Shown piece after piece: positions 35,711-52,646 of a stretch of 64,000 nt of DNA. The stretch comes from Streptomonospora salina. GTDB taxonomy: Bacteria > Actinomycetota > Actinomycetes > Streptosporangiales > Streptosporangiaceae. How positions within the stretch are numbered: the first letter of the stretch is position 1; every line of letters begins with the position of its first letter. The position numbers and the translations under genes were made by a program. The notes under the pieces are model-generated. The model did no database searches. It had not been told where the DNA came from and was given only the letters and a program-made list of their open reading frames with translations. The stretch covers positions 4,052,501-4,116,500 of the forward strand of contig NZ_JACHLY010000001.1 in NCBI RefSeq assembly GCF_014204715.1, given 5' to 3'.

Positions 35711-37120
35711 TTGGGGACAAAGTGCCCCAAGCTGAAACGACCCAACGGGGGCTGGAACTCCGCCCACGGAACCTGGGCCGTCCAGACCGAGTTGCCCCGA
35801 CGCCCCTCCGGTACGCGGCGCCAGGCGCGGCGGATCGGGTTCGACACCCAGGAAGCCGCGCGCGACCACCTCGACCACATCAAAACGGTGCTGGGGGTGG
35901 CCGAGGGCGACGGGCAGGCCGCCATCAAGGCGGGCGACCTCATCGAACAGGCCATCAGAAAGCGCACCCACCTCCCGGGCACGGACGAAGTACGCCGCCG
36001 CATCGGCGGGGGCGCCGACACCCGCGAGACCGTGCCCACGGTGGGCGAGTGGCTCAACGAGTGGTTGGCGGGCAAGAAGAAGCTCGCCGCCTCCACCCGG
36101 TTGTCGTATCAGGGCCACATCACCAACTACCTCGCCCCGCACCTGGGCTGGGTGCGCCTCGACAAGCTCGGGACGGGCCATCTGCAGACGATGTTCGAGG
36201 CGATCGAGGAGACCAACGACCACATCCGCACCAGCCGCGCGTCAGACGATGCGCAGGTGCGGGCCTCGGTGCACGGGATGCGCACCGTGAGCGTCTCCAC
36301 CGAGCACCGCATCCGGGCGACCCTGCGCAGCGCCCTCTCGGCGGCCGTGTCCCGCCCGGACCTTCCGCTGCAGGTGAATGTGGCCTCCCACATCGAGCTG
36401 GAGTCGGCCCCGGGCCCCAAGCCGGTGGTGTGGAGCGCCGAGCGGGTCGCCCGTTTCCGCAAAACCGGCGAGGTGCCGGCCCCGGTCATGGTCTGGACCC
36501 CCGAGCAGACCGGCCGCTTCCTGGAACGCGCCCGCCGCGACCGGCTCTACGCCCTCTTCCACCTCATCGCCCTGAAAGGCCCCCGCCGGGGTGAAGCCGT
36601 GGGCTTGGAGTGGGACTCGGTGCGCCTCGACGACGGCGCGATCGGCATCACGACCCAGGTGGTGCAGTTGGGGTGGGACACGGCGGTGTCCACACCCAAG
36701 AGCGCAGCCGGGCGGCGCACCATCACCCTCGACGAGGACACCGTGGACGTGCTGAAGCCGTGGCGCAAGCGCCAGCGGCAGGAGCGCCTCAAAGCAGGGG
36801 AGGCGTGGGTGGAGTCGGGGCGGGTGTTCACCCATCCCGACGGCACCGGATTGCACCCGGGGTGGGTGAGCGGGTTGTTCTGCCGTATCGCCGCCGAGGC
36901 GGGCTTGCCGCCGATCAGCCTGCACGGACTGCGCCACGGCGCCGCCTCGCTGAGCCTGGCGGCGGGGGTGGACGTGAAGGTGGTCTCCTCCGAACTCGGC
37001 CACTCCACGACCTCGTTCACTCAGGACACCTATCAGAGCGTGTTCCCCGACGTCGCCAAAGCCGCCGCCGAGGCGACGGCGAAGCTGCTGCCGTTGACGA
37101 AGGCTCGATCCGCGGACTGA
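35711..37120 (+). CDS. Phage/ICE-type tyrosine recombinase (integrase), 5' end altered
   Basis: About 469 residues from a TTG at 35711. It has an AP2-like N-terminal arm-binding region (HGTWAVQTELPRRPSGTRRQARRIGF...), a core-binding domain (TVGEWLNEWLAGKKKLAASTRLSY..., about 108-190), and a catalytic domain with Arg (LKGPRRGEA), HGLRHGAA (His-x-x-Arg), LGHSTTSFTQDTY (His and nucleophile Tyr near 446). All catalytic residues are present. Actinomycete relatives usually carry 15-25 more N-terminal residues before the GKxLGxKCPKL motif; here they are replaced by a transposase remnant, so the native start is lost and activity is doubtful. No excisionase or replication gene is adjacent. Confidence 0.88.
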   Translation: MGTKCPKLKRPNGGWNSAHGTWAVQTELPRRPSGTRRQARRIGFDTQEAARDHLDHIKTVLGVAEGDGQAAIKAGDLIEQAIRKRTHLPGTDEVRRRIGGGADTRETVPTVGEWLNEWLAGKKKLAASTRLSYQGHITNYLAPHLGWVRLDKLGTGHLQTMFEAIEETNDHIRTSRASDDAQVRASVHGMRTVSVSTEHRIRATLRSALSAAVSRPDLPLQVNVASHIELESAPGPKPVVWSAERVARFRKTGEVPAPVMVWTPEQTGRFLERARRDRLYALFHLIALKGPRRGEAVGLEWDSVRLDDGAIGITTQVVQLGWDTAVSTPKSAAGRRTITLDEDTVDVLKPWRKRQRQERLKAGEAWVESGRVFTHPDGTGLHPGWVSGLFCRIAAEAGLPPISLHGLRHGAASLSLAAGVDVKVVSSELGHSTTSFTQDTYQSVFPDVAKAAAEATAKLLPLTKARSAD

Positions 37121-37511: not shown

Positions 37512-37703
37512 CTATTTGGAGGTCCAAGTTCTTTTTGTCCAATAAAGTAAGCCTGAAACGACAACGATGCTGCCGACGGCGGCCATTTCAAGGATTCGTG
37601 GCCCTCTGTCGAGGAATTTTCGCACAAAGAAAGAGGTGCATGGGTAGACGAATATCATGGCGAGAATGAATGCCCATACCATGCTGTTTTTGCAGGTTTC
37701 CAT
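37512..37703 (-). CDS. Tiny two-helix membrane protein, probable orphan RHS immunity protein (63 aa)
   Basis: The ATG at 37703 has the ribosome-binding site AGAGGG. The product has two hydrophobic helices, about 8-27 (MVWAFILAMIFVYPCTSFFV) and 40-56 (MAAVGSIVVVSGLLYW), with a short basic loop RKFLDRGPR and tail TKRTWTSK. It is the most distal of four similar-sized genes that follow RHS tips in the same orientation, but has no tip of its own directly upstream. No sequence family is recognised; the immunity role is inferred from size, topology and location. Base composition is much lower in GC than the rest of the window. Confidence 0.6.
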   Translation of the reverse strand: METCKNSMVWAFILAMIFVYPCTSFFVRKFLDRGPRILEMAAVGSIVVVSGLLYWTKRTWTSK

Positions 37704-37819
37704 GGTGCCCTCTTTGTTGGCATTTACGGTTGCCCGGCGGATCTCACGACCATGGCAATCATCCGGCACTCACACGCTCCCGGCGCACTCGCAGCCAAGA
37801 AATTTCGCGCCGCCATGAA

Positions 37820-37856
37820 CGGGCGGGTGCGGCCCGAACCGGACCGCACCCGCCCG
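37820..37856 (-). terminator. 13-bp perfect stem-loop after the third immunity-like gene
   Basis: 37820-37832 (CGGGCGGGTGCGG) pairs with 37844-37856 around an 11-nt loop, 77 nt beyond the stop of the gene at 37933. No T-tract. It probably ends transcription of that gene. Confidence 0.65.
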
Positions 37857-37932
37857 CGATACACGGCCAGGGCACTCGAGACCCAATCAGCCGCCCGACC
37901 AAGGTTGTCGATGGTTCAACGAACAACCGATG

Positions 37933-38139
37933 TCAACCAAGAAAGCTTGGCAAATACATCATCAGAGCAGCCACGACAGACAAACCCAACGCAGCGAAAA
38001 GCATGGCAGCACAGACAGCGACAGAGGTTTTAGATCTCTTGTTTTTGTCAAAGGCATTAAAAGTGAGGCCGTAGACAAACCCCGCCAAGAGAAGCGCAAG
38101 GCCAATCAATAGAATGATAGTCGCCATTGCATCGCCCAT
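37933..38139 (-). CDS. Tiny two-helix membrane protein, probable immunity protein for RHS tip C (68 aa)
   Basis: The product begins MGDAMATIILLIGLALLLAG and has a second helix near residues 40-63 (VAVCAAMLFAALGLSVVAALMMY), separated by a polar loop NAFDKNKRSKTS. The ATG at 38139 lies 27 nt after the stop of orphan RHS tip C; an internal ATG at 38127 is an alternative start. Position, orientation, size and topology repeat those of the genes following the other two tips. Function is inferred only: protection from the hydrophobic tip encoded just upstream. Confidence 0.6.
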   Translation of the reverse strand: MGDAMATIILLIGLALLLAGFVYGLTFNAFDKNKRSKTSVAVCAAMLFAALGLSVVAALMMYLPSFLG

Positions 38140-38166
38140 TATTGTTCGGTTTTCTGGAGTTTACTA

Positions 38167-38661
38167 TTATCTTGTTGCATACTGCCAGATTGAATAACCC
38201 ATGCACATCAGAGCCAGGGCCGCACTCAAACTTGCAGCAATCCAGCCGAGTGGATTCCAACCGTTTTCCAGGGCCAAGAATCCCAAACCAGCCAATACAG
38301 GGCTGCCAACCACACAAACTACGTTGAGTCCGCTGGGGTCGGTGTTGTTGATGGTCGCATGCGGCGTAGGAGTACAGGTTGTCTTCTTGCCGGGAGGGGT
38401 CTTGTTGGGTGAAGCGGTGGGTGCGTTGGGAGAGGTAGCGGTGGCCGAGGGCTTTGTCGCCGTTGTCGAGTTCGTAGGCGCCGGTGTAGGTGAAGGGGTT
38501 GTCTCCGGCCGCTTGGTCGCCGCTGCCGGCCGTGGCCGCCTCGGTTTGGCCGTAGGAGGTGTAGTCGTAGGCCACCTCCGGATCGCTTGACTCGGTTCCG
38601 TCCTCGGCGAGGGCGAGGGTCGAGTTCTGGGCGTCGGTGGCGGCGTTGCAGCGCCGCCTGA
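38167..38661 (-). pseudogene. Orphan RHS 3' end with tip C, frameshifted
   Basis: From about 38661 downward the minus strand encodes the last RHS repeats and core (YDYTSYGQ..., NPFTYTGAYELDNGDKALGH, RFTQQDPSRQEDNLYSYAACD), close to the complete RHS protein at 40028. About two bases are missing near 38350 relative to that gene, throwing the frame. The downstream frame then reads INNTDPSGL and a 52-residue tip: NVVCVVGSPVLAGLGFLALE..., with cysteines at tip positions 4 and 41 and a long hydrophobic stretch. There is no start codon, signal peptide or ribosome site, so it is a silent displaced cassette. Confidence 0.8.
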
Positions 38662-38777
38662 GGCCGGGAGTGGGTGCCCGGGGGGTTTGTGCTTCCGCCC
38701 CGGGCGCCCGCCCTTCGTTCTTGCCCGGAGGTCATGGAGGTCTTCGTTTTCTATCGTGGACCGAAAACCCTCGCTCC

Positions 38778-38957
38778 TTATGTTTCCATAAGGAAAAATG
38801 CAAAAGCAGAAACAATAAGAAGAGTAGTCCCCAAGGCTATCCAAGCGATCGTCTCTGCTTTATCGGGCTTATGGTTTTGGCGAGCCAGGCTACGGATTCT
38901 CCAAGCTCCGACCATAGCAAAACCCCCCAATGCAATTGCCACCATACCGGCCGTCAT
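38778..38957 (-). CDS. Tiny two-helix membrane protein, probable immunity protein for RHS tip B (59 aa)
   Basis: The ATG at 38957 has a GAGGA ribosome-binding site 5 nt upstream. The product starts MTAGMVAIALGGFAMVGAWR, has a polar loop RSLARQNHKPDKAE and a second helix TIAWIALGTTLLIVSAFAFF, ending LMET. It begins 51 nt after the stop of orphan tip B, in the same orientation. It is shorter than 60 residues and easily overlooked. No family is recognised; the immunity role is inferred from the repeated tip-then-membrane-gene layout. Confidence 0.6.
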   Translation of the reverse strand: MTAGMVAIALGGFAMVGAWRIRSLARQNHKPDKAETIAWIALGTTLLIVSAFAFFLMET

Positions 38958-39008
38958 GGTTTCCTCTTTTTTGGAAAACTTTTCATGCAGATTGTTTCAG
39001 AATATGCC

Positions 39009-39607
39009 CTAACAAGCAGTTGCTACCCCATAAACCCCTACTCCCGCCCCGATGACAGCGGCGCCGAATAGAAATGCTGGCATGGCGACTGCGCCTCCCA
39101 CTCCGATGGCAATTGCCAAAGGCCATGCAGCGCCCGCGTATCCGATATCCGATACGAAAAATCCAGTGACATTTACCGCACATCCAACCCACAGTCCGCT
39201 GGGGTCGGTGTTGTTGATGGGGTCGCACTCTGCGTAGGAGTAGAGGTTGTCTTCCTGCCAGGAGGGGTCCTGCTGGGTGAAGCGTTCGGTGAGGTGGGAC
39301 ATGTAGCGGTGGCCCATGGCCTTGTCGCCGTTGTCGAAGGTATAGGAGCCGGTGTAGGTGAAGGGGTTGGCCTGGGCCGCTTGGTCGCCGCCGCTGTTGG
39401 TGGTGGTGTCGGTGTTGCCGTAGGGGGTGTAGTCGTAGGCCACCGCGGGATCGCCGGCGTCGGTGCCGTTTTCGGCGAGGGCGAGGGTGGAGTTCTGGTG
39501 GTCGGTGGCGGCGTTGTAGCGCTGCCCCTGGTCGTCGATCATGTCGAGCATGCGGCTGTCGGGGTCACACACGTAGTGGGTGCGGCCCCCGTCGTCCTGT
39601 TCGATGC
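39009..39607 (-). pseudogene. Orphan RHS 3' end with tip B (open frame, no start region)
   Basis: Similarity to the complete RHS gene begins sharply at about 39607 (SIEQDDGGRTHYVCDPDSRM...) and runs without frameshift through NPFTYTGSYTFDNGDKAMGH, RFTQQDPSWQEDNLYSYAECDPINNTDPSGL. A different 60-residue tip follows: WVGCAVNVTGFFVSDIGYAG..., very hydrophobic, with cysteines at tip positions 4 and 60 (the last residue). The upstream part lacks a signal peptide and YD repeats, so it is a displaced cassette and unlikely to be secreted. A hairpin (39634-39644 with 39662-39672) lies just before the homology starts. Confidence 0.82.
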
Positions 39608-39796
39608 TTGTCCAGGCTGGTACCGCAGCGCATCGAGGGCCTTCCGGCCGAACCACGTGTCGAAGGCCCTCGGTGCACCCGGGGATAGTTAACTGCTTTC
39701 GCGGCCTGTTTCTCTAATCAGAACCCTATGTATATATTCTATCCGATTCGATGATCCTTCCAGTGCCCGATACCCCGGATTGGATATTCATTACAA

Positions 39797-39988
39797 CTAA
39801 GGTTGCTCCTCCGCAATGAGAGCCACAAGCGAGACCACAAAAACGGAGACAAAAAGACATGCTGCAAGCAGTTTTTCAGCTCGTGAAACGTTGCGTCCTT
39901 TTCGGGCCAATATAAGGAACCTTATTTGCAGAAGAGCAGCAAGGGCGAGTAGCGTGGACGCCATTACTACGTACATAGCGATCGCCAA
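39797..39988 (-). CDS. Tiny two-helix membrane protein, probable immunity protein for RHS tip A (63 aa)
   Basis: Begins MAIAMYVVMASTLLALAALL, then a basic loop (LARKGRNVSRAEK) and a second helix LLAACLFVSVFVVSLVALIA, ending EEQP. ATG at 39988 lies 39 nt after the stop of the full RHS gene, so the two are probably co-transcribed. It is unlike the other three small proteins in sequence but matches them in topology (helix, basic loop, helix) and in placement directly behind a tip. The immunity function is inferred from this layout. Confidence 0.62.
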   Translation of the reverse strand: MAIAMYVVMASTLLALAALLQIRFLILARKGRNVSRAEKLLAACLFVSVFVVSLVALIAEEQP

Positions 39989-40027
39989 AAACCTTGGTTG
40001 GTTGGCATGGAAGTTATCCTTGTTTCT

Positions 40028-43000
40028 CTAGAACAGCGGGTACAGGGCACACCCGATGCTGCTGACTGCTGCGCCCGCTGCAATTGTCCAGCCAAGAGGT
40101 CCGGTCACTGCAAGCGCGTAAGCAACAAATCCCACCTTGGCCCAGTAAATGCTAAGCCCTGAGCAGATAGCCGTAGCAACACTTACAAGTCCTGATGGGT
40201 CGGTGTTGTTGACGGGGTCGCAGGCGGCGTAGGAGTAGAGGTTGTTTTCTTGCCGGGAGGGGTCTTGTTGGGTGAAGCGGTGGGTGAGTTGGGAGAGGTA
40301 GCGGTGGCCGAGGGCTTTGTCGCCGTTGTCGAGTTCGTAGGCGCCGGTGTAGGTGAAGGGGTTGGCCTCGTCGACCGCACCGCCGCCGTTAGCGGTGTCG
40401 GTCTCGGTGTCGCCGTAGGGGGTGTAGTCGTAGGCCACCGCAGGGTCCTGCGACTCCGCGCCGTCCTCGGCGAGGGCGAGGGTGGAGTTCTGGTGGTCGG
40501 TGGCGGCGTTGTAGCGCTGCCCCTGGTCGTCGAGCATGCCCAGCATCCGCCCATCGGGATCGCGCACGTAGTGGGTGCGGCCCCCGTCGTCCTGTTCGAT
40601 GCTGGAGATGCCCAGGGCTGTGTTGGTCAGGGTCCGGGTGGCGGCCTCCTCGCCGGTGCCTTGGGTGATGGTGCGGCGCTGGGTGGAGTCGGCGGTGTCG
40701 TAGCCGACCTGCAGGTCCGCCTCGGCGTCGCCGGCGTCCTTCTCGGTCATCTGCCCGGTGGGGCTGTAATCGATGTCGGTGTCGCCGGAGGAGGTGAGGT
40801 TGCCCGCCTGGTCGTAGCCCAGGTCGGTGTCGCCGGCTTCGGTGACCTGGTCGGCCCGGTTCACCGCGTAGTCGGTGTCGCCGGCGGAGGTGAGGTTGTC
40901 GGCCTCGTCGTAGGTGTAGTCGGTCTGCCCGTCGCTGGTCAGCCGCCCGCGCTGGTCGTAGGTGAAGTCGCGGGTGTCGCCGTTGACGGTGCGCGACTGG
41001 AGCTTGGTGGTGGCTTCCCCGTCGTCATCGGTGTAGGAGTAGACCGCCTCGGCCAGGGTGTCGCCGCCGGCGTTGGCCATCACCGACTCGGTCAGCAGCC
41101 CGGCCTCGTTGTGCTCCAGCTGCTGGGAGCCTCCGTCGGGGAAGGTGACCGTGTCGCGGTTGCCGGCCTCGTCGTAGCCGATGGTGGTCTCACCGCCCTG
41201 GTCGTCGGTGACCGTGGTCACCCGGTGGGCGGCGTCGTAGGCGTAGTCGGTCGTGGCGCCGTGTTCACTCAGCGAGGTGAGGTTGCCGGCTTTGTCGTAG
41301 CTGTAGGCGTAGAGATCATGGTCGTCGCCGTCGTCGCGGCCGGTGGAGGCCACGTCGCCGCGCTTGTCGTAGGCGTGGGCCAGCGTGGCCCGGGGCGTGT
41401 GGGTGGCGGTGACGTCGCCGTTGGCGTTGTACTCGGTGGACTGCAAAATGGTGCCCTCGTGGGTGATCTGGGTGACCCGGTCGAGGGCGTCGTAGGTGTA
41501 GTCCAGCGTGGTGCCCGCACCGTCGGTGACGCTGGTGACCCGGGACAGGGCGTCGTAGTCGAGGGTGGTGGTGCCCAGCGGGTCGGGCTGGTCGATCTCG
41601 GTGAGGTTGCCGTCGCCGTCGTAGGAGTACTCGGTCGTGGCGCCGTTGCCGTTGGTTTGTGCGGCGAGGGTGCCGTTGTTGTTGTACTCGAAGCTGGCTT
41701 CGGGGTTCTCGGCGCCGGGGCGGGTGATTTCGGTGAGGTTGCCGCGGGCGTCGTAGTCCAGCTCCATCTCCTGCTCGGGGGCGGTGATGGAGGTGGGTTT
41801 GTGCGGGTTGGCGGAATCGGCGTAGCCCACCTGGTACTGGGCGCCGCTGGGCAACTCGGTGCCGACCATGTTGTTGAGGTCGTCGTAGTCGTAGGTGGTG
41901 GAGGCCCCGGCCGGGTCGGTGGCGGCGGCGACGTCGGCGGCGGCGGTCCAGTCGGTGGAGCGGGTGTTGCCTTCGGCGTCGGTGGCCTCTTCTTGGCGGC
42001 CCTGGGAGTCGAAGGTGTGGGTGGAGTCGTTGCCGCGCGGGTCGGTGACCGTGGTTTCTTGGTCGCCGTGGTCGTAGGTGGTGATGGCGCGCTCGTCGCC
42101 GGTGACCGGCTGGTCCAGCTCGGTCAAGCGCCCGTCGGTGTTGTGGTCGAGGTTCCAGACGTGGCCGCGGGCGTTGGTGATCTCGGCCAGGTGGTGGTTG
42201 TCGTCGTAGGCGAAGGAGACGGTCTCGCCGGCCCGGTCGGTGATGGCGGTGAGCAGCCCGTCGGCGTTGTAGGCGTATTCGGCCGCGGTGGCCCCGGTGG
42301 GGTCGGTGATCTCGGTGAGGCCGATGCGCAGGTCGTGCCAGTCGAGTTCGGTGACCCGGTCCTGGTCGTCGACCACGGAGGTGATGAGGCCGTCGGAGTC
42401 GTAGCCCAGGGTCTGGGTGTTGCCGTTGTGGTCGCTTTGGGAGTACAGCCATCCGTCGGCGGTGAAGGTCCACATCTGGTCGGTGTAGGGGCCTTCGTGG
42501 AAGGTGAGGCTGTAGCGGCCGTTGTCGAGTTCCTCCAGGTCGGCGTCCATGTCCTCGGGCGAGGAGAAGTCGCCGCCGCCCTGGTCGGTGAAGGTTTCGC
42601 AGAAGCCGGAGGGGCCGCGGAAGACGACGTCGTCGGAGTCGGTGATGAAGTCCAGGCCCACGTCGGTGCCGGTGTTGAGTTTCCACCCGTTGGTGCCGAG
42701 GTCTTGGCTGTTGTAGACGCTGGACAGGGACAGGTCGATGCCGGTGCCGGGGATGGTCAGATCGCGGTGGCGCAGGACGGTGTTGCCGTTTTCGAGGTTG
42801 ACGTCCAGTTCCAGGCGGTCGCTGATCTGGTGGCGCTGCATCGGGTAGTGGTTCTGCACGCCGCGGTTGGTGCCGTCGTCGCAGTTGTCGCCCGGGTCGA
42901 CGTCGGTGTCCAGGGTCGAGGCCCCGCCCTGTTGTTGGGCTTCGCGTTCGTGCGGGGGTTTCCATTCCTCTTGCGGCGGGGCTCCGCCGGAGGGGTCGCG

Positions 43001-43171
43001 GTCGACCGTCTCGTCGGGGGTCCAGGAGTCTCCGGCGGGCACTTCGCGGGCGCCGGTGTCGCCGGGGTCGGCGTGGGCGGGAACGGCCACCAGCAGGGGG
43101 GTGATCAGCAGGGCGGCCGCGGTGGGCACCAACGGCCGGAACAAGCCGTGGTGGGGGTTCAGCAGGGGCAC
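40028..43171 (-). CDS. Secreted RHS/YD-repeat protein with short hydrophobic tip (WapA-like polymorphic toxin)
   Basis: About 1047 residues. GTG at 43171, 6 nt after AGGAG, gives a Sec signal peptide (PLVPTAAALLITPLLVAVPAHA). A linker, a DUF6531-like entry region (DLTIPGTGIDLSLSSVYNSQD) and some 20 YD repeats (for example YDYDDLNNMV, YSYDGDGNLTEI) follow from about 260 to 850. Then comes the RHS core with RFTQQDPSRQENNLYSYAACD and the boundary motif PVNNTDPSGL, matching the Px4DPxGL signature after which RHS tips are released. The tip is only 52 residues (VSVATAICSGLSIYWAKVGF...), hydrophobic, with cysteines at tip positions 8 and 46. The repeats form a hollow shell around the tip. It is exported and probably acts in contact-dependent competition. 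The tip is not a recognisable nuclease. Confidence 0.9.
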   Translation of the reverse strand: MPLLNPHHGLFRPLVPTAAALLITPLLVAVPAHADPGDTGAREVPAGDSWTPDETVDRDPSGGAPPQEEWKPPHEREAQQQGGASTLDTDVDPGDNCDDGTNRGVQNHYPMQRHQISDRLELDVNLENGNTVLRHRDLTIPGTGIDLSLSSVYNSQDLGTNGWKLNTGTDVGLDFITDSDDVVFRGPSGFCETFTDQGGGDFSSPEDMDADLEELDNGRYSLTFHEGPYTDQMWTFTADGWLYSQSDHNGNTQTLGYDSDGLITSVVDDQDRVTELDWHDLRIGLTEITDPTGATAAEYAYNADGLLTAITDRAGETVSFAYDDNHHLAEITNARGHVWNLDHNTDGRLTELDQPVTGDERAITTYDHGDQETTVTDPRGNDSTHTFDSQGRQEEATDAEGNTRSTDWTAAADVAAATDPAGASTTYDYDDLNNMVGTELPSGAQYQVGYADSANPHKPTSITAPEQEMELDYDARGNLTEITRPGAENPEASFEYNNNGTLAAQTNGNGATTEYSYDGDGNLTEIDQPDPLGTTTLDYDALSRVTSVTDGAGTTLDYTYDALDRVTQITHEGTILQSTEYNANGDVTATHTPRATLAHAYDKRGDVASTGRDDGDDHDLYAYSYDKAGNLTSLSEHGATTDYAYDAAHRVTTVTDDQGGETTIGYDEAGNRDTVTFPDGGSQQLEHNEAGLLTESVMANAGGDTLAEAVYSYTDDDGEATTKLQSRTVNGDTRDFTYDQRGRLTSDGQTDYTYDEADNLTSAGDTDYAVNRADQVTEAGDTDLGYDQAGNLTSSGDTDIDYSPTGQMTEKDAGDAEADLQVGYDTADSTQRRTITQGTGEEAATRTLTNTALGISSIEQDDGGRTHYVRDPDGRMLGMLDDQGQRYNAATDHQNSTLALAEDGAESQDPAVAYDYTPYGDTETDTANGGGAVDEANPFTYTGAYELDNGDKALGHRYLSQLTHRFTQQDPSRQENNLYSYAACDPVNNTDPSGLVSVATAICSGLSIYWAKVGFVAYALAVTGPLGWTIAAGAAVSSIGCALYPLF

Positions 43172-44550: not shown

Positions 44551-45550
44551 TGAGGTGATCTCAGCGATTTCAGTTGAGGCGGCCATGCTCGAAACGGGTG
44601 AGTACGAGCGCTGCTTGCGCGATGCCGCCGATCTTGGTCGGGCTTGCGGTGATGTGCTTCAACAGTCGCCAGCGCTGCGTGAGCAGCGCGAACCCGCGTT
44701 CGCCCAGGCAACGTAGGCCACGTTCAGGCGGTCGACGGTTGCGTCGTCCACCGCCCGGTCTCGGCCGTCGCTGGGGGTGGTGAACGGAATGAGGACGCCG
44801 ATGCCGGCTCCCCGATAGCCCGGATCGGCCGGCGTCGGCAGCCCCCCGCGCCGCCGCGGGATAAAGCGCGGGCAGCACGTGGATGCGGGCGGCGGTCACA
44901 TCGTGTACGCAGCTGGGCTCGACGTCGCTGACGAAGGCGGGGAACCCGTCGGGTTCGCACAGGGCCTGAAGGTTGCCGCCGTGGTGGCCGGCTTTTCCCG
45001 AGTACCAGAGGTCGATCCGTTCGCCTTTGACGCTGAGGGTTTTTGCGGTGCAGCGGTCGGTGGCGACGACGGTGCCGTCCGGGATCAGGTGCGTGGCTCC
45101 GTCCTCGCGGGCCTGTTGCAGGGCCCGGTCGAGGTCGGGCGCCTGCTCGGCGAGCACGTCGGTGCCCTCGTCGGTGTAGCGGTAGGCGGTGGCGCGGCCG
45201 ATGGCGAAGTCGGGGGCCGGGTCGCAGGGGAGGGTGCCGTCGCGGAAGTGGCGCAGAACGAGCACGGCCTGGTGGAAGCAGGTCAGGGCGCGGCTGCCGG
45301 CGCGGGTGCCGCGCCGGCGGCGCTCGCCTGCCGGCAGCTTCGACAGGAAGTGGACGGCTTCCCTGCCGACATCGAGGATGGCACGATAGGTGACCACGTG
45401 GAGCCTTTCACGGTAGTCCGGCAAGATTCGACACCTCGCCTTCTACCTGGGGCTCCACGTCTATGTCCGGGGAACGGACATTCCTACCCGACTGTCGCTT
45501 CTGCGTACTTGGTCGCTCTTCCGGAACCAAAATTCGCTGAGATCACCTCA
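44551..45550 (-). mobile_element. IS5-family insertion sequence, 1000 bp, inverted repeats intact
   Basis: The 17-bp terminal inverted repeats are perfect: TGAGGTGATCTCAGCGA at 44551-44567 and its complement at 45534-45550. A single transposase gene lies between them in minus orientation. No target-site duplication is evident, so one flank may have been rearranged since insertion. It sits about 170 bp from the tRNA-Arg scar. Confidence 0.85.
44570..45424 (-). pseudogene. IS5-family DDE transposase with two frameshifts
   Basis: The N-terminal part (YRAILDVGREAVHFLSKLPAG..., ATAYRYTDEGTDVLAEQAPD, LIPDGTVVATDRC, DLWYSGKAGHHGGNLQALCE) is a DDE_Tnp_4-type transposase. In a G-rich run near 44852 the frame shifts: the true continuation (GYRGAGIGVLIPFTTPSDGR, DRAVDDATVDRLNVAYVAWA) is in another frame. 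It returns near 44710 for LGERGFALLTQRWRLLKHI and TKIGGIAQAALVLTRFEHG. The protein is therefore broken and the copy is likely immobile unless helped in trans. Confidence 0.85.
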
Positions 45551-46183
45551 TTGTCTCGCAAGCGCGTCAGGACACTAATGGTTCACACACGCGTGTCAAA
45601 TATCTTCTCCTTCAAATATGTCAAACATGACCAGCTGTTTGACACGAAGCTCTCGAATGATTGCTTCCTCGTCCCTCCGTGCTGCGTTACGATCGAGGAA
45701 ACTTCGACCTTCGACGTGAGAGGTTGGAGCTTCGCTAGTCTATTTGACGGCAGTTCATCGGGACTTGATGCTTCGCGAGCAAAAATTGTGGCTGCTTGCC
45801 AAAACAGATGGCCATGAAGACAGGAGGTGCGTCCGATCCCCGAATCGGCACTCGGTCTTGGATGTTACCGGGGCCATTTGATCTTCCCGGTTTCTGACTC
45901 ACCGCTGATCCGGTCGGCATCAGCGTCCACGCCCGACCGCTTCGAGTGATGGCGACCCGAGAACACCGAGCACGACCGTTCTTTGGCAGGGCCTTGACGG
46001 CGGGGAGAGGCATCCGCACAGCATGCCTCCGGCGGCCACTACCACAGGGACCGCAATCCGCCCTTTCTTGAGGCGCCAACCACGCCTGGTATGGAAAAGG
46101 CGTCACGCTCTCCATTCCAACAGTCCAGCAGACGCAACCAGTCCCGCCGGAACCGCTCCAAGAGAATTAGGTATGAAACCTCC
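45551..46183. promoter_or_regulatory. 633-bp non-coding leader with TGTCAAA half-sites, upstream of the TPL operon
   Basis: No gene is seen. The stretch 45580-45660 is unusually A/T-rich and contains TGTCAAA at 45594 and 45619 and the inverted copy TTTGACA at 45638. TGTCAAAC (45619-45626) and GTTTGACA (45637-45644) form a perfect 8-bp inverted repeat with a 10-nt spacer. TTTGACA also supplies a sigma-70 -35 hexamer (TTGACA), though no -10 at proper spacing is clear. A regulator operator upstream of the five-gene operon is plausible. Confidence 0.4.
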
Positions 46184-47614
46184 ATGACTAAGGCAGATTC
46201 CACGGATCCCACAGGCGATGCTCGGCATCCCGCGGAGCCCTGGCGGGTGAAGAGCATCGAGTCCATTCGTCTCACAAGTGCCCAGGAGCGCGGAGTGGCC
46301 CTATCGGCTGCTGGCTACAACGTGGGCATGCTGCCAGCGGATCTTGTGTACATCGACCTCTACACCGACTCGGGGACCAGCGCAATGTCGGACCGGCAGT
46401 GGGCTGCCATGATGCTCGGTGACGAGTCGTATGCGGGCTCGCGGAGCTTTTACCGCTTCGAGGCGGCGGTGCGTGACTACTACGGCTACGAGCACGTGAT
46501 ACCCGCTCATCAGGGGCGGGCAGCGGAGAACATGCTCTCGCGCTGCCTCATCCGACCAGGCCATCACGTCCCGGGAAACATGTACTTCACCACCACGCGC
46601 CAGCACCAGGAGCTCAACGGCGGGATCTTCCACGACATCATCATCGACGAGGCCCACGACCCGGACGCGGACTTGCCGTTCAAAGGGAATGTTGACCTCG
46701 CCAAGCTGGAGCGGCTCATCGGCAAGGTGGGAGCCGAGCAGATCCCGTACGTTTCGCTGGCCGCGACGGTGAACATGGCCGGGGGTCAGCCCATCAGTAT
46801 GGCCAACCTCGCGGAGGTCCGGGAGCTCACCCGCCGCCGCGGGATCCCGGTCATGCTTGACGCGGCGAGAGCGGTGGAGAACGCCTGGTTCATCAAGCAG
46901 CGTGAGCCGGGATGGAATGGGCGCTCGGTTGCCGACATTCTACAAGCGATGTGCGCGCTGACCGACGGTGCCACGATGTCGGCGAAGAAGGACAGCTTCG
47001 CCAATATCGGCGGCTGGCTTGCTGTGCGCGATCCAGCGCTAGCGGAGCAGGCGCGCAACCTGGTCGTTGTCTATGAGGGGCTGCACACCTATGGCGGGAT
47101 GGCCGGCCGTGACCTGGAGGCGACGGCGCAAGGCATTGAAGAGTCCGTACAGGAGGACAGTATACGCACCCGCGTCCAGCAGGTGGCCTACCTAGCAGGG
47201 CGGATCGCTGCGGCGGGTGTGCCGATCGTACGCCCGGTGGGCGGGCATGCCGTGTTCCTCAACGCGACGGCGTTCCTGCCGGGCATACCCCACGAGCAGT
47301 TTCCCGCGCAGACGCTGACCTGTGCGCTCTACCTCGATGCCGGGATCAGATCCACTGAGCGCGGAGCGGTGTCGGCCGGGCGTGACCCGGTGACGGGCGA
47401 GAACCGGTATCCGCCCCTCGAACTGGTCCGACTCACCATCCCGCGTCGCACTTATACGCAGAGCCATATGGATGTGGTGGCCGAGAGCATCATCCGGCTG
47501 TACGGGCAGCGAGAGAAGCTGCGTTCGGGCGTGGCATTCGCCTATGAGCCCGAGACTCTGCGCTTCTTCCAATCCCGGTTTCGGCCGCTGTCGGGCGAAC
47601 CGCTGTTCGGCTAG
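46184..47614 (+). CDS. tpl: Tyrosine phenol-lyase homologue (PLP beta-eliminating lyase)
   Basis: About 476 residues, close to known tyrosine phenol-lyases (456). It has PAEPWRVKSIE near the N-terminus, MLGDESYAGSRSFY (Tyr that contacts PLP), HQGRAAENMLS, the PLP-lysine motif TMSAKKDSFANIGGWL, and RSTERGAVSAGRDP. The Arg in TERG corresponds to the phenol-side Arg that separates tyrosine phenol-lyase from tryptophanase, which has Ile there. The reaction is L-Tyr plus water to phenol, pyruvate and ammonia, reversible to make Tyr analogues from phenols. Start ATG 46184 matches the family start; an upstream in-frame ATG at 46091 would add an Arg-rich extension without homology. First gene of a five-gene operon. 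Its role there could be supply of a substituted tyrosine (inference). Confidence 0.88.
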   Translation: MTKADSTDPTGDARHPAEPWRVKSIESIRLTSAQERGVALSAAGYNVGMLPADLVYIDLYTDSGTSAMSDRQWAAMMLGDESYAGSRSFYRFEAAVRDYYGYEHVIPAHQGRAAENMLSRCLIRPGHHVPGNMYFTTTRQHQELNGGIFHDIIIDEAHDPDADLPFKGNVDLAKLERLIGKVGAEQIPYVSLAATVNMAGGQPISMANLAEVRELTRRRGIPVMLDAARAVENAWFIKQREPGWNGRSVADILQAMCALTDGATMSAKKDSFANIGGWLAVRDPALAEQARNLVVVYEGLHTYGGMAGRDLEATAQGIEESVQEDSIRTRVQQVAYLAGRIAAAGVPIVRPVGGHAVFLNATAFLPGIPHEQFPAQTLTCALYLDAGIRSTERGAVSAGRDPVTGENRYPPLELVRLTIPRRTYTQSHMDVVAESIIRLYGQREKLRSGVAFAYEPETLRFFQSRFRPLSGEPLFG

Positions 47615-47691
47615 GTCACGACGTAACCCCGCAGAACCACCCAGGTGCGTGTTAGAGGACTCGCCCCCTCCCCTCCCGTCAGGAGCTTGCC

Positions 47692-48732
47692 ATGACGCAA
47701 CCGAAGGACACCACACCGCTGCTGCCCACTCCTCTCATGCAGCTCGCCACGGGATTCTGGAGCTTCAAGACCTTTGCGGGTGCCATCGACATCGGCTTGT
47801 TCAATCTGCTGGGCGGAGGACGTGAGCTGACCATGGAAGAGGTGTCGGCCGAACTGGGGATCGCCGACCGGCCCGCCGACCTGCTTCTGGCCGGCTGCGC
47901 ATCGCTGGGCCTCCTGGACAAGTCCGGCTCCCGGTACCGAAATTCGGAACTCTCGGAGGAGTTCCTGGTCGAGGGGAGGCCCTACTACTTCGGCGGGTTC
48001 GTCCGCTACCTGGACCGCCGCGAGTACCCCGCCTGGCAGTCCATTGTCCAGACCCTCCGGACAAACAGTCCCCTCACCTGGACCCCTGGCAAGCAGGAGT
48101 CGCTCTTTGACACCGAGGCTCCGGAGACTCTGCAGCTGTTCTGGGACTGCATGTACTCCATCTCCACCTTCACGGCGCGCGCGCTCGCCGCGGTCTATGA
48201 CTTCACCCGGAACACGCGGCTGCTGGACGTGGGCGGCGGCGCTGGCGCCTTCCCCATCGAATTGTGCCGTCACTTCGACCACTTGAGCGCGTCGGTCTTC
48301 GAACTGTCGCACGTGTGTGACCTGGCGCGCCAGCGGATCACCGACGCCAAGATGAGCGACACTGTCGATGCGGTCGTCGGGGACTTCATCCGCGATCCCG
48401 AACTGCCCCGCGGCTACGACGCCGTCATCCTGAGCATGATTCTTCATGACTGGGACGAAAACACCGGTCGGACGCTACTGCGCAAATGCCGAGCCGCTCT
48501 TCCCTCCGGCGGTGTCGTGTTGATCTGCGAACTCTTACTCAACGACGAGCGTACCGGACCACCGGCTGCAGCCTTGATGGGGATGAACATGCTGGTGGAG
48601 ACCGAGGGAGGCAAGAACTACTCGGCCGCGGAGTACCGGAACTGGTTGCTGGAAGCCGGCTTCGCCCGCGTGGAAGTCCTGCCCCTCGAGGCGGCCGGCG
48701 CCAATGGTGTGGTTGTCGGCCACGTCAGCTGA
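47692..48732 (+). CDS. SAM-dependent O-methyltransferase (Methyltransf_2 family)
   Basis: The 346-residue protein has an N-terminal winged-helix dimerisation domain (about 20-95, ELTMEEVSAELGIADRPADLLL) and a Rossmann domain with SAM motif LLDVGGGAGAF near residue 180. The catalytic His lies in SMILHDWDENTGRTLL near residue 250. Family members methylate phenolic or other hydroxyls of natural products. ATG 47692 follows AGGAG by 6 nt and lies 77 nt after the tyrosine phenol-lyase gene. A phenol or hydroxy-tyrosine unit made by the neighbouring enzymes is the plausible substrate. Confidence 0.9.
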   Translation: MTQPKDTTPLLPTPLMQLATGFWSFKTFAGAIDIGLFNLLGGGRELTMEEVSAELGIADRPADLLLAGCASLGLLDKSGSRYRNSELSEEFLVEGRPYYFGGFVRYLDRREYPAWQSIVQTLRTNSPLTWTPGKQESLFDTEAPETLQLFWDCMYSISTFTARALAAVYDFTRNTRLLDVGGGAGAFPIELCRHFDHLSASVFELSHVCDLARQRITDAKMSDTVDAVVGDFIRDPELPRGYDAVILSMILHDWDENTGRTLLRKCRAALPSGGVVLICELLLNDERTGPPAAALMGMNMLVETEGGKNYSAAEYRNWLLEAGFARVEVLPLEAAGANGVVVGHVS

Positions 48733-48807
48733 CACGCGTGCATCCAAGCTGTTCCCGGATCGGGGCAGCAACCCCAAGCCGCGAACCAACCCACTTGAGA
48801 GGGCCCC

Positions 48808-51800
48808 ATGCGCCTGCGTGAGCGCATCGCTGGATACGACCGTGCCAGGCACGGAGTCCACCTGCTCAGAACTCCCGAAGTCATCGCCGATCCCTCCGTC
48901 TACATCGACGCCATCGCCGAGCTTGGCCCCCTGTTCTTCGACGAGGTCGGGGCAATGTGGGTGTGCTCCGGCTATGCCGAGGCAGTTGAGATCCTGCGCG
49001 GCCACCGGACATTCTCTTCCGTGCGCGAGCACGACCAGGGCGCGTTTGAGGAGCTGGGCCTGCACGCCTCCGCGAGCCTGAGCACCATGGTGCACGAGCA
49101 GATGCTCTTCATGGATCCGCCACAGCACAATGCCGTCCGGTCAGCCCTGGCCGAGCAGTTCACCGGCACCCGTGTAAGGAGCCGCGAGAACGACCTGCGG
49201 CAGATGGCCACCCGCGCCCTTGAGGATTTGCCTCGCAATGGCGTCCTCGACCTGGTGGTGGACTTCGCAGCGAAGCTGCCCTGCGCGCTGGTGGCGCAGT
49301 TACTGGGCATGCCGGGAAGGGAAGCAGAACTCACCCGGTGGGCTGAAGCCTACGAGCGGCTGCTGGGCAGCCTGTCCGCGCTGCCGGCGGCCCCGGACTC
49401 GGAGGTGGACGCGGTCCTGGCCGATGCCCTTGCCGTGTTGCAGAACGAAGCGAGAAGTCGACTGCGCACGCCTGGCGACGACGTGATCAGCTCGCTGACC
49501 GCCCCCCTGGTCGGCCGGTCACCAACCGACGATGAGCTGTTTGCTGTTGCGGCGAACTGCATCGTTCTGGTGGGCGGCGGCTACCAAACCCTGACCCACC
49601 TAGTCACTTCGGCTCTGCTGGCCGTGCATGACGACCCGGTCCTGGAGAAGCGTCTGCGTGAGGCCCCCGAGCACATCCCATCAGTTGTCGCAGAGGTCAT
49701 GCGGGTCAACGGGTCGAGCCAGTACGTCGCGCGCAAAGCCACCACCGATGTGACTGTCCAGGGAACTCTGATCACAGCAGGCGAGAGAGTCCTGGTCCAC
49801 CTGGCCGCTGCCAACCTGGACCCCCGGACCTTCACCGCACCCCGCACTCTGGACCTGGGCCGTCACGGCCCCAAGCACCTGGGCTTCGGCAGCGGACGCC
49901 ACGCCTGCCCTGGCGCAGGTTACGCCGAACGCCTCGCCGGATTCGCAATTGAAGGCTTTCTGGCCCAGTACCCGTCCTATGCACCGGAACCGGAAGCACT
50001 CTCCTGGGGCATGCACGGGAACACCCGCTGCCTTGAACACGCGCGCGTCCGTGTCGATGCCGGAGTGACACCGGAAACTCCCCTCGACATACAAACGGCC
50101 GAACCCCACGCCACCGCCGGCGACAGCGTCCCCGCCCTGCCTGAGACCACCATCCCGGCAGGCTGCTGGCATGAGGTGTTCGAGCGGCAAGCCCTGCTGA
50201 CGCCTGAGGCACTGGCGGTACAGGGGCCGGACGGCGACATCAGCTACCGCGAGCTCGATCAGCGGGCCAACGCTCTGGCCCATCGACTGCGGCGCCAGGG
50301 CGCCCAACCTGGCGCCGCAGTCGGCATCGTCATGGAACGTTCCGTGGAATTCGTCCTCTCTGTGCTGGCAGTAGCGAAGACCGGAGCCGCGTTCCTGCTC
50401 GCGGACGTATCCTGCCCCCGTGAACGCCTGCGGGCCATGCTCGTCGAGGCCGAGGCACGCATCGTCGTGTCCGACGACAGCCTTCCTTCCTCAGCCTCCC
50501 CCGTCCAGGTTGTCCGTTTAGGTGCGAAAGACTTCCGCCCGGATGCCCCGCTCACTGGAGCCTCCTCCGGCGACACGGCCTACGTCGTCTTCACCAGCGG
50601 CAGCACCGGTGCCCCGAAGGCCATCGCGATCAGCCACAAGGCCACGGTCAATCTCCACCTGGCGCAGCACCAGATCTTCGCCCTCAAACCCGCCGACCGG
50701 GTCCTGCAGTTCCTGTCACCCAACTTCGACGGCTGCATCGCCGACATCACTCTCGCGCTCCTGTCGGGCGCCACTTTGATCGTCGCGCCATCCGACCAGC
50801 TCACCGTCGGCCCCCCGCTGGCCCGACTGCTCGCATCACAGCGGATCACGACCGCAATCCTCACCCCGTCGGTCTGGATGACTCTCCCGGACCAGGTCCT
50901 GCCCGAACTGCGCATCGCCGCAGCCGCGGGCGAGCGACTGCCAGCTGCATGGGCGCGCAGGTGGACCGCACCAGGGCGGCGCCTGCTCAACCTTTACGGG
51001 CCGGCCGAGACGGCCGTCCTGGCAACCTGGCACGAATGCTCCCCGAACGACGACCCCCCGCCCATTGGCCGACCAGTCGCCAACAAACAGGCCTATCTCC
51101 TGGACCACCGCCTACGCAGCGTCCCGCCCGGGCAGGAGGGGGAACTCTGCCTCGGAGGCATCGGTGTCGGAAGATACCTGAACCAGCCAGATCTCATGGA
51201 AGAACGCTTCATCCGAACCCCCCACACCACCACCGACCCGGGAAGCCTGCTCTACCGCACCGGTGACATCTGTCGGCAGCACTCGGACGGCACACTCGAA
51301 TACATCGGCCGCCGCGATCGTCAGATCAAGATCCGCGGCCAACGCGTCGAACTCGACGAGGTCGAGCGCGTCCTGGAGGCCGCCCCCGGGGTCACCGCCT
51401 GCGCCGTATATGAACAAGACGGCCGTATTGAAGCCCTGACCGTTCCCGCCGGCTCCCAGCTCGACGAGGAACCGATCCGCACCTTCCTGGCCTCCCGCCT
51501 GCACAGCGCCATGCTGCCTTCTGTGTTCACTACCGTCACCGAACTCCCGCGCACCGTGAACGGCAAAGCCGACCACCCCCCAACGCCCTCCAACGCGCTC
51601 GCTGCTCGCACCTACCCCGCCGGGCCCGCGCTCCCACTCGACGAACGCGCGAGGCGTCACTCCCGCATGACCTGGGAGATCGCCCAGCACTTCTCGCAGG
51701 TCCTCAACGTCCCGCTGCGTCGGGTCCAGGCGGATTTCGACTTCTTCTCCGCAGGCGGCGACTCCATCACCATCGCCGCCTTCCAGGTACGCCTGGAATC

Positions 51801-51897
51801 ACTGACAGGCACACCCGTGGACACCGCAACCCTGATCACGGCGCCTACTCCGGAGCAGATTGCCACCCTTCTCCTCGATACCGGGACACCGACATGA
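48808..51897 (+). CDS. Fused cytochrome P450 - adenylation - carrier protein (1029 aa)
   Basis: Residues 1-415 form a cytochrome P450 with ExxR (EVMR near 294) and the haem-Cys motif FGSGRHACPG near 350-360. Its I-helix reads VGGGYQTLTH, with Gln where the usual AGxD/ET acid lies. Residues 445-950 are an adenylation domain with VVFTSGSTGAPKA, LYGPAET, YRTGD, GRRDRQIKIRG and NGKAD; the code by eye is D-G-A-I-A-A-L-V-L-K, unassigned. A carrier protein follows (about 960-1020, FSAGGDSITIAA). The parts match separate enzymes such as NovI (P450) and NovH (A-T), which beta-hydroxylate carrier-bound Tyr, but here are one chain. No C domain is present, so it activates and oxidises one amino acid. ATG 48808 follows GAGAGG; the stop overlaps the hydrolase start. 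Confidence 0.93.
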   Translation: MRLRERIAGYDRARHGVHLLRTPEVIADPSVYIDAIAELGPLFFDEVGAMWVCSGYAEAVEILRGHRTFSSVREHDQGAFEELGLHASASLSTMVHEQMLFMDPPQHNAVRSALAEQFTGTRVRSRENDLRQMATRALEDLPRNGVLDLVVDFAAKLPCALVAQLLGMPGREAELTRWAEAYERLLGSLSALPAAPDSEVDAVLADALAVLQNEARSRLRTPGDDVISSLTAPLVGRSPTDDELFAVAANCIVLVGGGYQTLTHLVTSALLAVHDDPVLEKRLREAPEHIPSVVAEVMRVNGSSQYVARKATTDVTVQGTLITAGERVLVHLAAANLDPRTFTAPRTLDLGRHGPKHLGFGSGRHACPGAGYAERLAGFAIEGFLAQYPSYAPEPEALSWGMHGNTRCLEHARVRVDAGVTPETPLDIQTAEPHATAGDSVPALPETTIPAGCWHEVFERQALLTPEALAVQGPDGDISYRELDQRANALAHRLRRQGAQPGAAVGIVMERSVEFVLSVLAVAKTGAAFLLADVSCPRERLRAMLVEAEARIVVSDDSLPSSASPVQVVRLGAKDFRPDAPLTGASSGDTAYVVFTSGSTGAPKAIAISHKATVNLHLAQHQIFALKPADRVLQFLSPNFDGCIADITLALLSGATLIVAPSDQLTVGPPLARLLASQRITTAILTPSVWMTLPDQVLPELRIAAAAGERLPAAWARRWTAPGRRLLNLYGPAETAVLATWHECSPNDDPPPIGRPVANKQAYLLDHRLRSVPPGQEGELCLGGIGVGRYLNQPDLMEERFIRTPHTTTDPGSLLYRTGDICRQHSDGTLEYIGRRDRQIKIRGQRVELDEVERVLEAAPGVTACAVYEQDGRIEALTVPAGSQLDEEPIRTFLASRLHSAMLPSVFTTVTELPRTVNGKADHPPTPSNALAARTYPAGPALPLDERARRHSRMTWEIAQHFSQVLNVPLRRVQADFDFFSAGGDSITIAAFQVRLESLTGTPVDTATLITAPTPEQIATLLLDTGTPT

Positions 51898-52646
51898 CCC
51901 GCCCAGTACTGCACACGAGGAGGGGCACACGGCCCGAGGCAGTCCTGTTCGTCCACGGAACGATGGACCACAGCGCGACCTTCCAGCGAGTCGCAGCACA
52001 TATGCCCGGATGGACCGTCGCCGGGTATGACCGGCGCGGATGGGTCACCTCTCGCGCCCTCGCGGACCCGCAGACCCAAATGGCCGACCATGTAACCGAT
52101 CTCATCTCCGCTACCTCCAGATTTCCAAGGCCCGTCGTGGCAGGGCACAGCTACGGCGCACTCGTGGCACTCACCGCAGCAGCCCAGCATCCTCGATTCA
52201 TCAGGGCGGTCGTCCTCTTCGAGCCGCCCGTTCGCTGGCTGCCTTGGTGGCCCGACACCGCCCCCTGGGAGCAATTGGTCGAAGACGCATCAGCTCAGGG
52301 ACCAGCCGCCGCGGCCAGAGCCCTCCAAGAAGCCGTCGTCGGCCACCCCACCACGCGACAGTCAGAGCAGGAACTAGAAGCGGCCGGTACCGCCCTGATC
52401 CGGGAGATGTCCGACCCCGCACTCAACCTGCCCACATTCGACCCCACGACGATAACCACACCTGTTATCACCGTTTCGGGAAGCCAGTCGCTGACACATC
52501 ACCGACAGACCGCGCTCCACCTTGCAAACCTGATCCCTGCCGGCCACCACGCATCCATCGACGGCGCCGACCACATCGCGCACGTCACCCATCCACAGGA
52601 CCTCGCCGCGCTCATAGAACAGGCAGCTGCCATGGATGAGGGCTGA
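51894..52646 (+). CDS. Alpha/beta hydrolase, probable type II thioesterase
   Basis: 250 residues: oxyanion region VHGTMD, nucleophile elbow GHSYG (Ser near 83), catalytic Asp/His region ending DGADHIAHVTHP. The ATG at 51894 overlaps the stop of the P450-A-T gene (ATGA), indicating tight translational coupling. The likely task is hydrolysis of the oxidised aminoacyl thioester from the upstream carrier protein, as the separate thioesterase NikP2 does with NikP1 and NikQ in nikkomycin biosynthesis. That comparison rests on gene arrangement, and the substrate is not known. Confidence 0.85.
   Translation: MTRPVLHTRRGTRPEAVLFVHGTMDHSATFQRVAAHMPGWTVAGYDRRGWVTSRALADPQTQMADHVTDLISATSRFPRPVVAGHSYGALVALTAAAQHPRFIRAVVLFEPPVRWLPWWPDTAPWEQLVEDASAQGPAAAARALQEAVVGHPTTRQSEQELEAAGTALIREMSDPALNLPTFDPTTITTPVITVSGSQSLTHHRQTALHLANLIPAGHHASIDGADHIAHVTHPQDLAALIEQAAAMDEG

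Follow-up and report, generated by a model that had tools for sequence, protein, structure and literature searches.

The 64,000-nucleotide stretch of the Streptomonospora salina genome analysed here (hereafter the window; RefSeq assembly GCF_014204715.1, contig NZ_JACHLY010000001.1, positions 4,052,501 to 4,116,500 of the forward strand) contains on its minus strand an RHS locus that consists of one full-length RHS gene, followed by two headless cassettes and then by a lone open reading frame (ORF) (Table 1). A Pfam scan of the full-length gene returned RHS repeats (PF05593, E 2.8e-58) and DUF6531, an NCBIfam scan returned the RHS-associated core (TIGR03696, 51.9 bits against a cut-off of 32.5), and phmmer comparison of the shell with solved Rhs shells gave a best E value of 2.7e-26 and a value of 4.1e-17 against Tse5. 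As judged from its sequence, the gene carries the features by which RHS polymorphic toxins are recognised, namely YD/RHS repeats with an RHS-associated core, and a variable C-terminal tip past a DPxGL-type boundary with a linked gene downstream.

RHS tips known from Gram-positive bacteria are mostly discussed as enzymes. The earlier note on this DNA described three hydrophobic tips of 52, 60 and 52 residues past NNTDPSGL, each with two cysteines 37–56 residues apart and each followed within 27–51 nt by a membrane protein of 59–68 residues, and our analysis bears this description out. The cysteines of tips 1, 2 and 3 are separated by 38, 56 and 37 residues, the grand averages of hydropathy (GRAVY) are 1.37, 1.49 and 0.95, and the partner proteins (59, 59 and 68 residues) start 51, 51 and 27 nt past the tip stops. 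Cassette 3 is frameshifted before its tip, and both cassettes lack the front of the shell, which leaves tip 1 as the only one carried by a complete shell. The G+C content of tips and partners (47–58%) is low compared with that of the shell (69%), which fits foreign cassettes.

The claim of complete divergence among the three tips probably goes too far. Tips 1 and 3 show 30% identity in alignment with C, P and C in register, and are probably distant homologues; under stricter pairwise clustering they fall into separate clusters. In a nine-row alignment of these two tips with seven others, C and P are invariant and the second cysteine is in register in 8 of 9 rows. A profile of those rows, run on 341 genomes of the taxonomic family, found 11 matches with E < 1e-7, made up of the nine own rows, one identical second copy and one new tip (G106), and ten further weak matches with E values of 0.002 to 0.009. 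The new match (L059 near 9774) is a tip related to that of L047; it lies directly behind an RHS repeat and looks as though the remainder of the shell had been deleted. An AlphaFold2 (AF2) model of tip 1 has two helices (residues 3–26 and 31–51; predicted local distance difference test score, pLDDT, 72; predicted template modelling score, pTM, 0.37), which at low to medium confidence form a helical hairpin with one cysteine per helix. No Pfam or NCBIfam model scored above its cut-off for any scanned tip, a match to a known family being one way in which the earlier note could have failed.

Table 1 Features of the RHS locus in the window (TM, transmembrane).
Feature	Position	Strand	Basis or remark
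Full-length RHS gene, shell + tip 1, 1047 aa	40028..43171	-	GTG start picked by eye from signal peptide
N-terminal signal peptide, about 34 aa, last residues AHA	43070..43171	-	Read by eye
RHS-associated core up to NNTDPSGL, presumed self-cleavage boundary	40187..40426	-	TIGR03696 covers residues 916-995, stops at DPSGL
Tip 1, 52 aa, Cys 8/46	40031..40186	-	Sequence reading, AF2 model
Partner 1, 59 aa, two predicted TM helices, presumed immunity	39797..39976	-	ATG start; alternative TTG at 39988 possible
Cassette 2, headless RHS core copy, in frame with tip 2	39192..39656	-	85% nt identity to main core, 406 nt
Tip 2, 60 aa, Cys 4/60	39012..39191	-	Sequence reading
Partner 2, 59 aa, two predicted TM helices	38778..38957	-	Sequence reading
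Cassette 3, headless core copy, frame differs from tip 3	38336..38658	-	86.6% nt identity, 328 nt
Tip 3, 52 aa, Cys 4/41	38170..38325	-	Probable distant homologue of tip 1
Partner 3, 68 aa, two predicted TM helices	37933..38139	-	Sequence reading
Lone partner 4, 63 aa, two hydrophobic stretches + basic loop, no upstream tip	37512..37703	-	Scored minus first residue

A core search of the taxonomic family matched 29 of 341 genomes at E 1e-10; 27 stretches were fetched from 16 of these, twelve others were taken as short loci (L024–L035), and one is the window's own genome. A related-locus search of genome contigs gave one locus (L008). Every core copy that reaches the boundary was counted (n = 60, with the duplicate L038-7825, a second match of one cassette, removed and window tip 3 added), where a core copy counts as a main gene if 540 or more open codons lead up to its boundary (n = 20 including the window's), and a partner is a two-helix ORF located from 40 nt before to 200 nt after the tip stop. 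We found exactly two cysteines in the tips of 19 of the 20 main genes, these tips being 52–102 residues long, and two-helix ORFs beside 17 of the 20. Hydrophobic tips, most of them beside a small two-helix gene, thus recur at homologous loci of relatives and form a class. The boundary Asp is likewise kept in 19 of 20, and the sole exception to the cysteine count (L050) is a short shell that has lost this Asp and has no partner. Among the 40 orphan core copies, 29 tips have exactly two cysteines and 28 a two-helix ORF; the exceptions, whose tails are short, basic or interrupted, look broken in our judgement from reading them. The short loci add three tips with partners (L030, L033 and L035) and one two-cysteine tip without (L031), the others (L024–L029, L032 and L034) being of other kinds. 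By eye, 13 of the 20 main genes have a signal-like N-terminus.

The cysteine count is well above chance. Of 39 non-redundant hydrophobic tips (<50% identity), 35 have exactly two cysteines against 10.3 expected, and binomial simulation gave at most 22 in 20000 runs. Since the tips are partly related by descent, sequence clusters matter here, and when 83 tips of the window's family and of a second family (f20, below) were grouped into 33 clusters, two was the commonest cysteine number in 27 of them. The controls were other RHS loci, 40 from genus g35 and 20 from other genera of the family; the comparison loci (L063–L142) were chosen from the listed matches, mostly the best-scoring ones, and not at random. 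Four of the 40 g35 loci had no DPxG motif and two no stop within the contig, and these were left out. In the 54 sampled control genes read to a stop (34 + 20), there were no short hydrophobic two-cysteine tails and no two-helix ORFs; the control tails are 105–563 residues long with negative mean hydropathy. The tip class therefore goes with this type of shell and not with RHS genes in general.

Tips of the window's kind also occur outside its taxonomic family. Among 20 picked loci from other actinomycete families (L103–L122), four were of this kind (L103, L106, L110 and L112). Two of the 20 had no DPxG motif and were left out, and within the 18 parsed rows a script flagged four tips as short, hydrophobic and two-cysteine (L103, L106, L112 and L115), of which L115 was set aside as acidic and unlike the rest; L110 was added after being read as L152. 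A further 20 loci (L143–L162), seven from the window's own family, were chosen for short frames or a second look, and six of them were of the window's kind (L147, L152–L155 and L162), although L152–L155 are the same four genes as in the previous sample and L162 is L030 again. Two cysteines were present in 6/6 and a two-helix partner in 5/6 of these; in L147 the two cysteines lie near each other at the end, and this gene showed no signal peptide.

Using the core of L154, we searched family f20, where 69 of 297 genomes matched, and obtained 33 tips from the 30 loci returned, the seed gene being included as L173. Two cysteines were present in 21 of the 23 hydrophobic tips, and partners were detected beside 15 of the 23. 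Two short tips (38 and 11 residues), one with a single cysteine, look broken. The remaining eight tips are polar, six with four cysteines and two with two, and one of the eight has a partner; the six (L177, L180, L188, L190, L195 and L198) form a second, polar tip family of exactly four cysteines in a shared pattern, 5/6 of them partnerless. With the two short tips excluded, 14 of 20 non-redundant f20 tips have exactly two cysteines (binomial mean 5.3, maximum 13), and all 20 have an even number (10.1 expected, maximum 19 in 20000 runs), in line with the even numbers that disulfides predict.

Short-shell cores are found on plasmids as well. There are 42 plasmid records with the same core, 27 of them from Streptomyces, and since these records come mostly from that genus, f20/g87 is probably Streptomyces. 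Among the 15 plasmid matches listed, 13 carry the annotation RHS core protein, and the other two have no feature. The tips on plasmids of S. cyaneofuscatus, S. rimosus and Streptomyces sp. NA13 have two cysteines in 3/3 cases; of these only NA13 has a two-helix ORF by our definition, and S. cyaneofuscatus has an annotated neighbour of 69 residues with one hydrophobic stretch. Matches to the core itself also come from 10 Clavibacter plasmid records and from a few that are Arthrobacter-like.

This wide recurrence bears on whether the tips could be remnants, namely hydrophobic linkers that stayed behind when an enzymatic toxin domain was lost, with the small ORFs as chance or remains. Several orphan cassettes do look broken and cassette 3 is frameshifted, but 52–102-residue two-cysteine tips in nearly every main gene and a cysteine parity that holds in the second family make such decay highly improbable.

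The partner proteins follow looser rules than the tips. In Pfam and NCBIfam scans that included partners, one f20 partner matched DUF308 (26.0 bits against a cut-off of 25). Among 36 non-redundant partners, 15, 17, 3 and 1 have 0, 1, 2 and 3 cysteines, which is no rule of the kind seen in the tips. The arrangement of helix, basic loop and helix proposed by the earlier note describes the window partners well, but a uniform basic-loop topology was dropped for the class because the loop is the most positive part in 18/36 only. Across 32 intact pairs, similarity between tips correlated with similarity between partners (r 0.20, reached in 0 of 5000 permutations).

DNA-level comparison past the boundary (loci L036–L062 and L143–L162) showed how tip and partner travel. 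The shells of G042 are 86% identical to the window's over 2.5 kb of nucleotide sequence, and past the boundary only tip 2 and partner 2 match, at 89% nucleotide identity over 414 nt and as one unit, which belongs to the main gene in L037 and is an orphan in L036, both loci being of another genus, and an orphan in the window. At the protein level, a relative of tip 3 is an orphan in L037. The three G042 loci (L036, L037 and L038) contain long arrays of headless tip–partner cassettes, some repeated and some apparently broken, with 14 core copies in about 12 kb of L036, the main gene's counted. These patterns can be set against a reading in which the RHS shell is an adhesin that its hydrophobic tip anchors in the membrane on the producer's own surface, with the two-helix protein as an anchoring partner. 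Such a reading would suit tips that are hydrophobic and modelled as helical, with cleavage at the boundary unproven. We nevertheless think it quite unlikely, as an anchor need not take 33 sequence clusters, 27 of them two-cysteine, nor does it need headless cassettes stored without a shell, and the retention of the boundary Asp and the joint variation of tip and partner also speak against it.

Shell homology, boundary, tip form, cysteine rule, partner linkage and the presence of one unit across two genera together point to a polymorphic toxin, and we consider it probable that the locus encodes exported RHS shells with disulfide-closed membrane-acting tips and membrane immunity partners. On this account, all shells of the class would be exported, and each would fold round its own C-terminal hydrophobic peptide of 45–110 residues, probably cut it free past DPxGL and keep the greasy peptide soluble outside the cell. 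The two cysteines would probably pair as a disulfide after export and close the helical hairpin, a step we infer from the cysteine number together with export. On contact with a target the peptide would enter the membrane and cause depolarisation or permeabilisation, and the two-helix protein would stay in the membrane of the producer and block the matching tip. The downstream headless tip–partner cassettes may act as a store, the expressed tip being swapped by recombination in the shared core. Most of these proposed steps have published precedents.

Several observations weigh against this account. No partner was detected for three of the 20 main genes, for 12 of the 40 orphan rows and for 8 of the 23 hydrophobic f20 tips, and the charge pattern of the partners is mixed across the class; the tip–partner correlation is weak once tips of at least 90 residues are removed (r 0.13, 45 of 5000 permutations). 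Two hydrophobic f20 tips are free of cysteine, the six polar ones have four, and L122 combines four cysteines with a two-helix ORF. The N-termini of 7 of the 20 main genes are not clearly signal-like: two are cut by contig ends (L045 and L046), one belongs to a short frame (L043), and four are unclear (L036–L038 and L054). The tip-family profile search was mostly circular, with 9 of 11 strong matches being the model's own rows; the tip 1 model is shallow, resting on 3 sequences with its low pTM, and a model of the full RHS protein (2 sequences, pLDDT 45) was set aside. A glycine zipper was dropped as a unifying motif (29 of 39 tips against 24.2 +/- 2.5 in shuffles, barely above). Toxicity of the tips and protection by their partners are predictions from sequence.

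Some bacteriocins act as membrane-inserting blockers and not as pores. The tips could similarly insert into the membrane and antagonise a single membrane protein or lipid there, with the immunity protein acting as a competitor within the membrane. Nothing in their small size or in the absence of a marked glycine-zipper signal requires a pore, but the great diversity of the tips (33 clusters) would be easier to explain if they target the bilayer than if they target a single protein, and we regard this alternative as unlikely.

The polymorphic toxin account has close published parallels, for which we draw on parts of the papers cited. In Tse5 of Pseudomonas aeruginosa an RHS shell encloses a C-terminal membrane toxin, which depolarises cells (PMC9637101, PMC10684867), and its immunity protein Tsi5 has two predicted TM regions (PMC9637101). 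The shell of the window locus matches that of Tse5 by phmmer, and on sequence alone the locus has a hydrophobic tip and a two-TM partner. Tse5 depends on type VI delivery in a Gram-negative bacterium, whereas the window has an actinomycete gene with a signal peptide: a Pfam scan of this gene found no PAAR-like N-terminus of the type VI kind, and its N-terminus reads as a signal peptide. The word "cysteine" is absent from the main text of both Tse5 papers (PMC9637101, PMC10684867). BiTLP, a Bacillus teneurin-like RHS protein, has an RHS/YD shell with a hydrophobic C-terminal domain that permeabilises cells and is toxic only with a signal peptide; it differs in its length of about 2200 residues and its teneurin superfold, and the part of the paper drawn on describes neither a cysteine rule nor a two-helix partner (PMC13018210).

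Other systems share single traits. The ionophore toxins of contact-dependent inhibition (CDI) are polymorphic membrane toxins with hydrophobic immunity proteins (PMC11630599, PMC3482391), of which Imm-CdiI and Imm17 are given as two TM helices, but they are carried by CdiA and not by an RHS protein, and their ionophore domain forms a bundle of five helices and comes with an entry domain. Imm17 carries a WxW motif (PMC3482391), which was absent from partners 1–4 on reading, and no Imm family appeared among the Pfam rows. TspA and EsxX of Staphylococcus are exported membrane-depolarising toxins of a Gram-positive bacterium, TspA acting only from outside and having one membrane immunity protein; they use type VII secretion, and the part of the source drawn on makes no mention of an RHS shell (PMC12744356). 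UmbC2 and "4TM tox", from Streptomyces umbrella particles, represent a secreted actinomycete polymorphic toxin of predicted pore-forming activity, but the carrier has ALF repeats and "Rhs" is absent from the main text (PMC11062931). Tox-WTIP is a small hydrophobic domain with two predicted membrane helices on RHS carriers, but it is given for proteobacteria only and is defined by RxxR and Wx[ST]IP (PMC3482391), both absent from tips 1–3 on reading.

As Tse5/Tsi5 are published, membrane-acting RHS tips are already known as a kind, and this, with the BiTLP tip (PMC9637101, PMC13018210), removes the claim that no such family had been described; the other parts of that interpretation, namely interchangeable hydrophobic two-cysteine tips, linked membrane partners and the same pattern in relatives, are supported here. 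What appears new, judged by the literature searched, is the short Gram-positive shell, exported where its N-terminus is clear, the diversity of the tips and the cysteine rule. Among the open-access titles and abstract openings listed, with subscription papers and preprints outside the scope, none dealt with actinomycete RHS proteins that carry such tips.

The surroundings of the RHS locus contain a phage-type integrase (PF00589, E 4.9e-14; 35711–37120, plus strand) on one flank and a DDE transposase-like ORF (PF13359, E 1.1e-10; 44570–45424, minus strand) on the other, and the locus therefore fits a mobile or hot-spot site. Further along, genes for a beta-eliminating lyase, an O-methyltransferase, a P450–AMP-binding–carrier fusion and a hydrolase (46091–52646, plus strand) look like part of a small-molecule cluster. 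Two giant ORFs of 2731 and 4647 residues with high third-position G+C content lie at 8590–30622 on the minus strand.

A bolder extension, which we put forward tentatively as possible though short of probable, is that these loci are encapsulated bacteriocins, in which an exported actinomycete RHS capsule of ~1000–1200 residues would carry disulfide-closed hydrophobic helical peptides from numerous unrelated families. The disulfide would be strictly required for membrane insertion or would switch it, with two-helix immunity within the membrane, and tandem stores that swap tip and immunity as a unit between genera. The class would then span dozens of membrane-acting tips with a near-invariant cysteine pair in Nocardiopsis-like organisms and probably in Streptomyces. 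If true, it would supply a wealth of protein-carried antibacterial peptides with matched immunity pairs, and the cysteine rule, which is simple and held in a second family, would offer a testable claim about the way a hydrophobic peptide is held and armed outside the cell.

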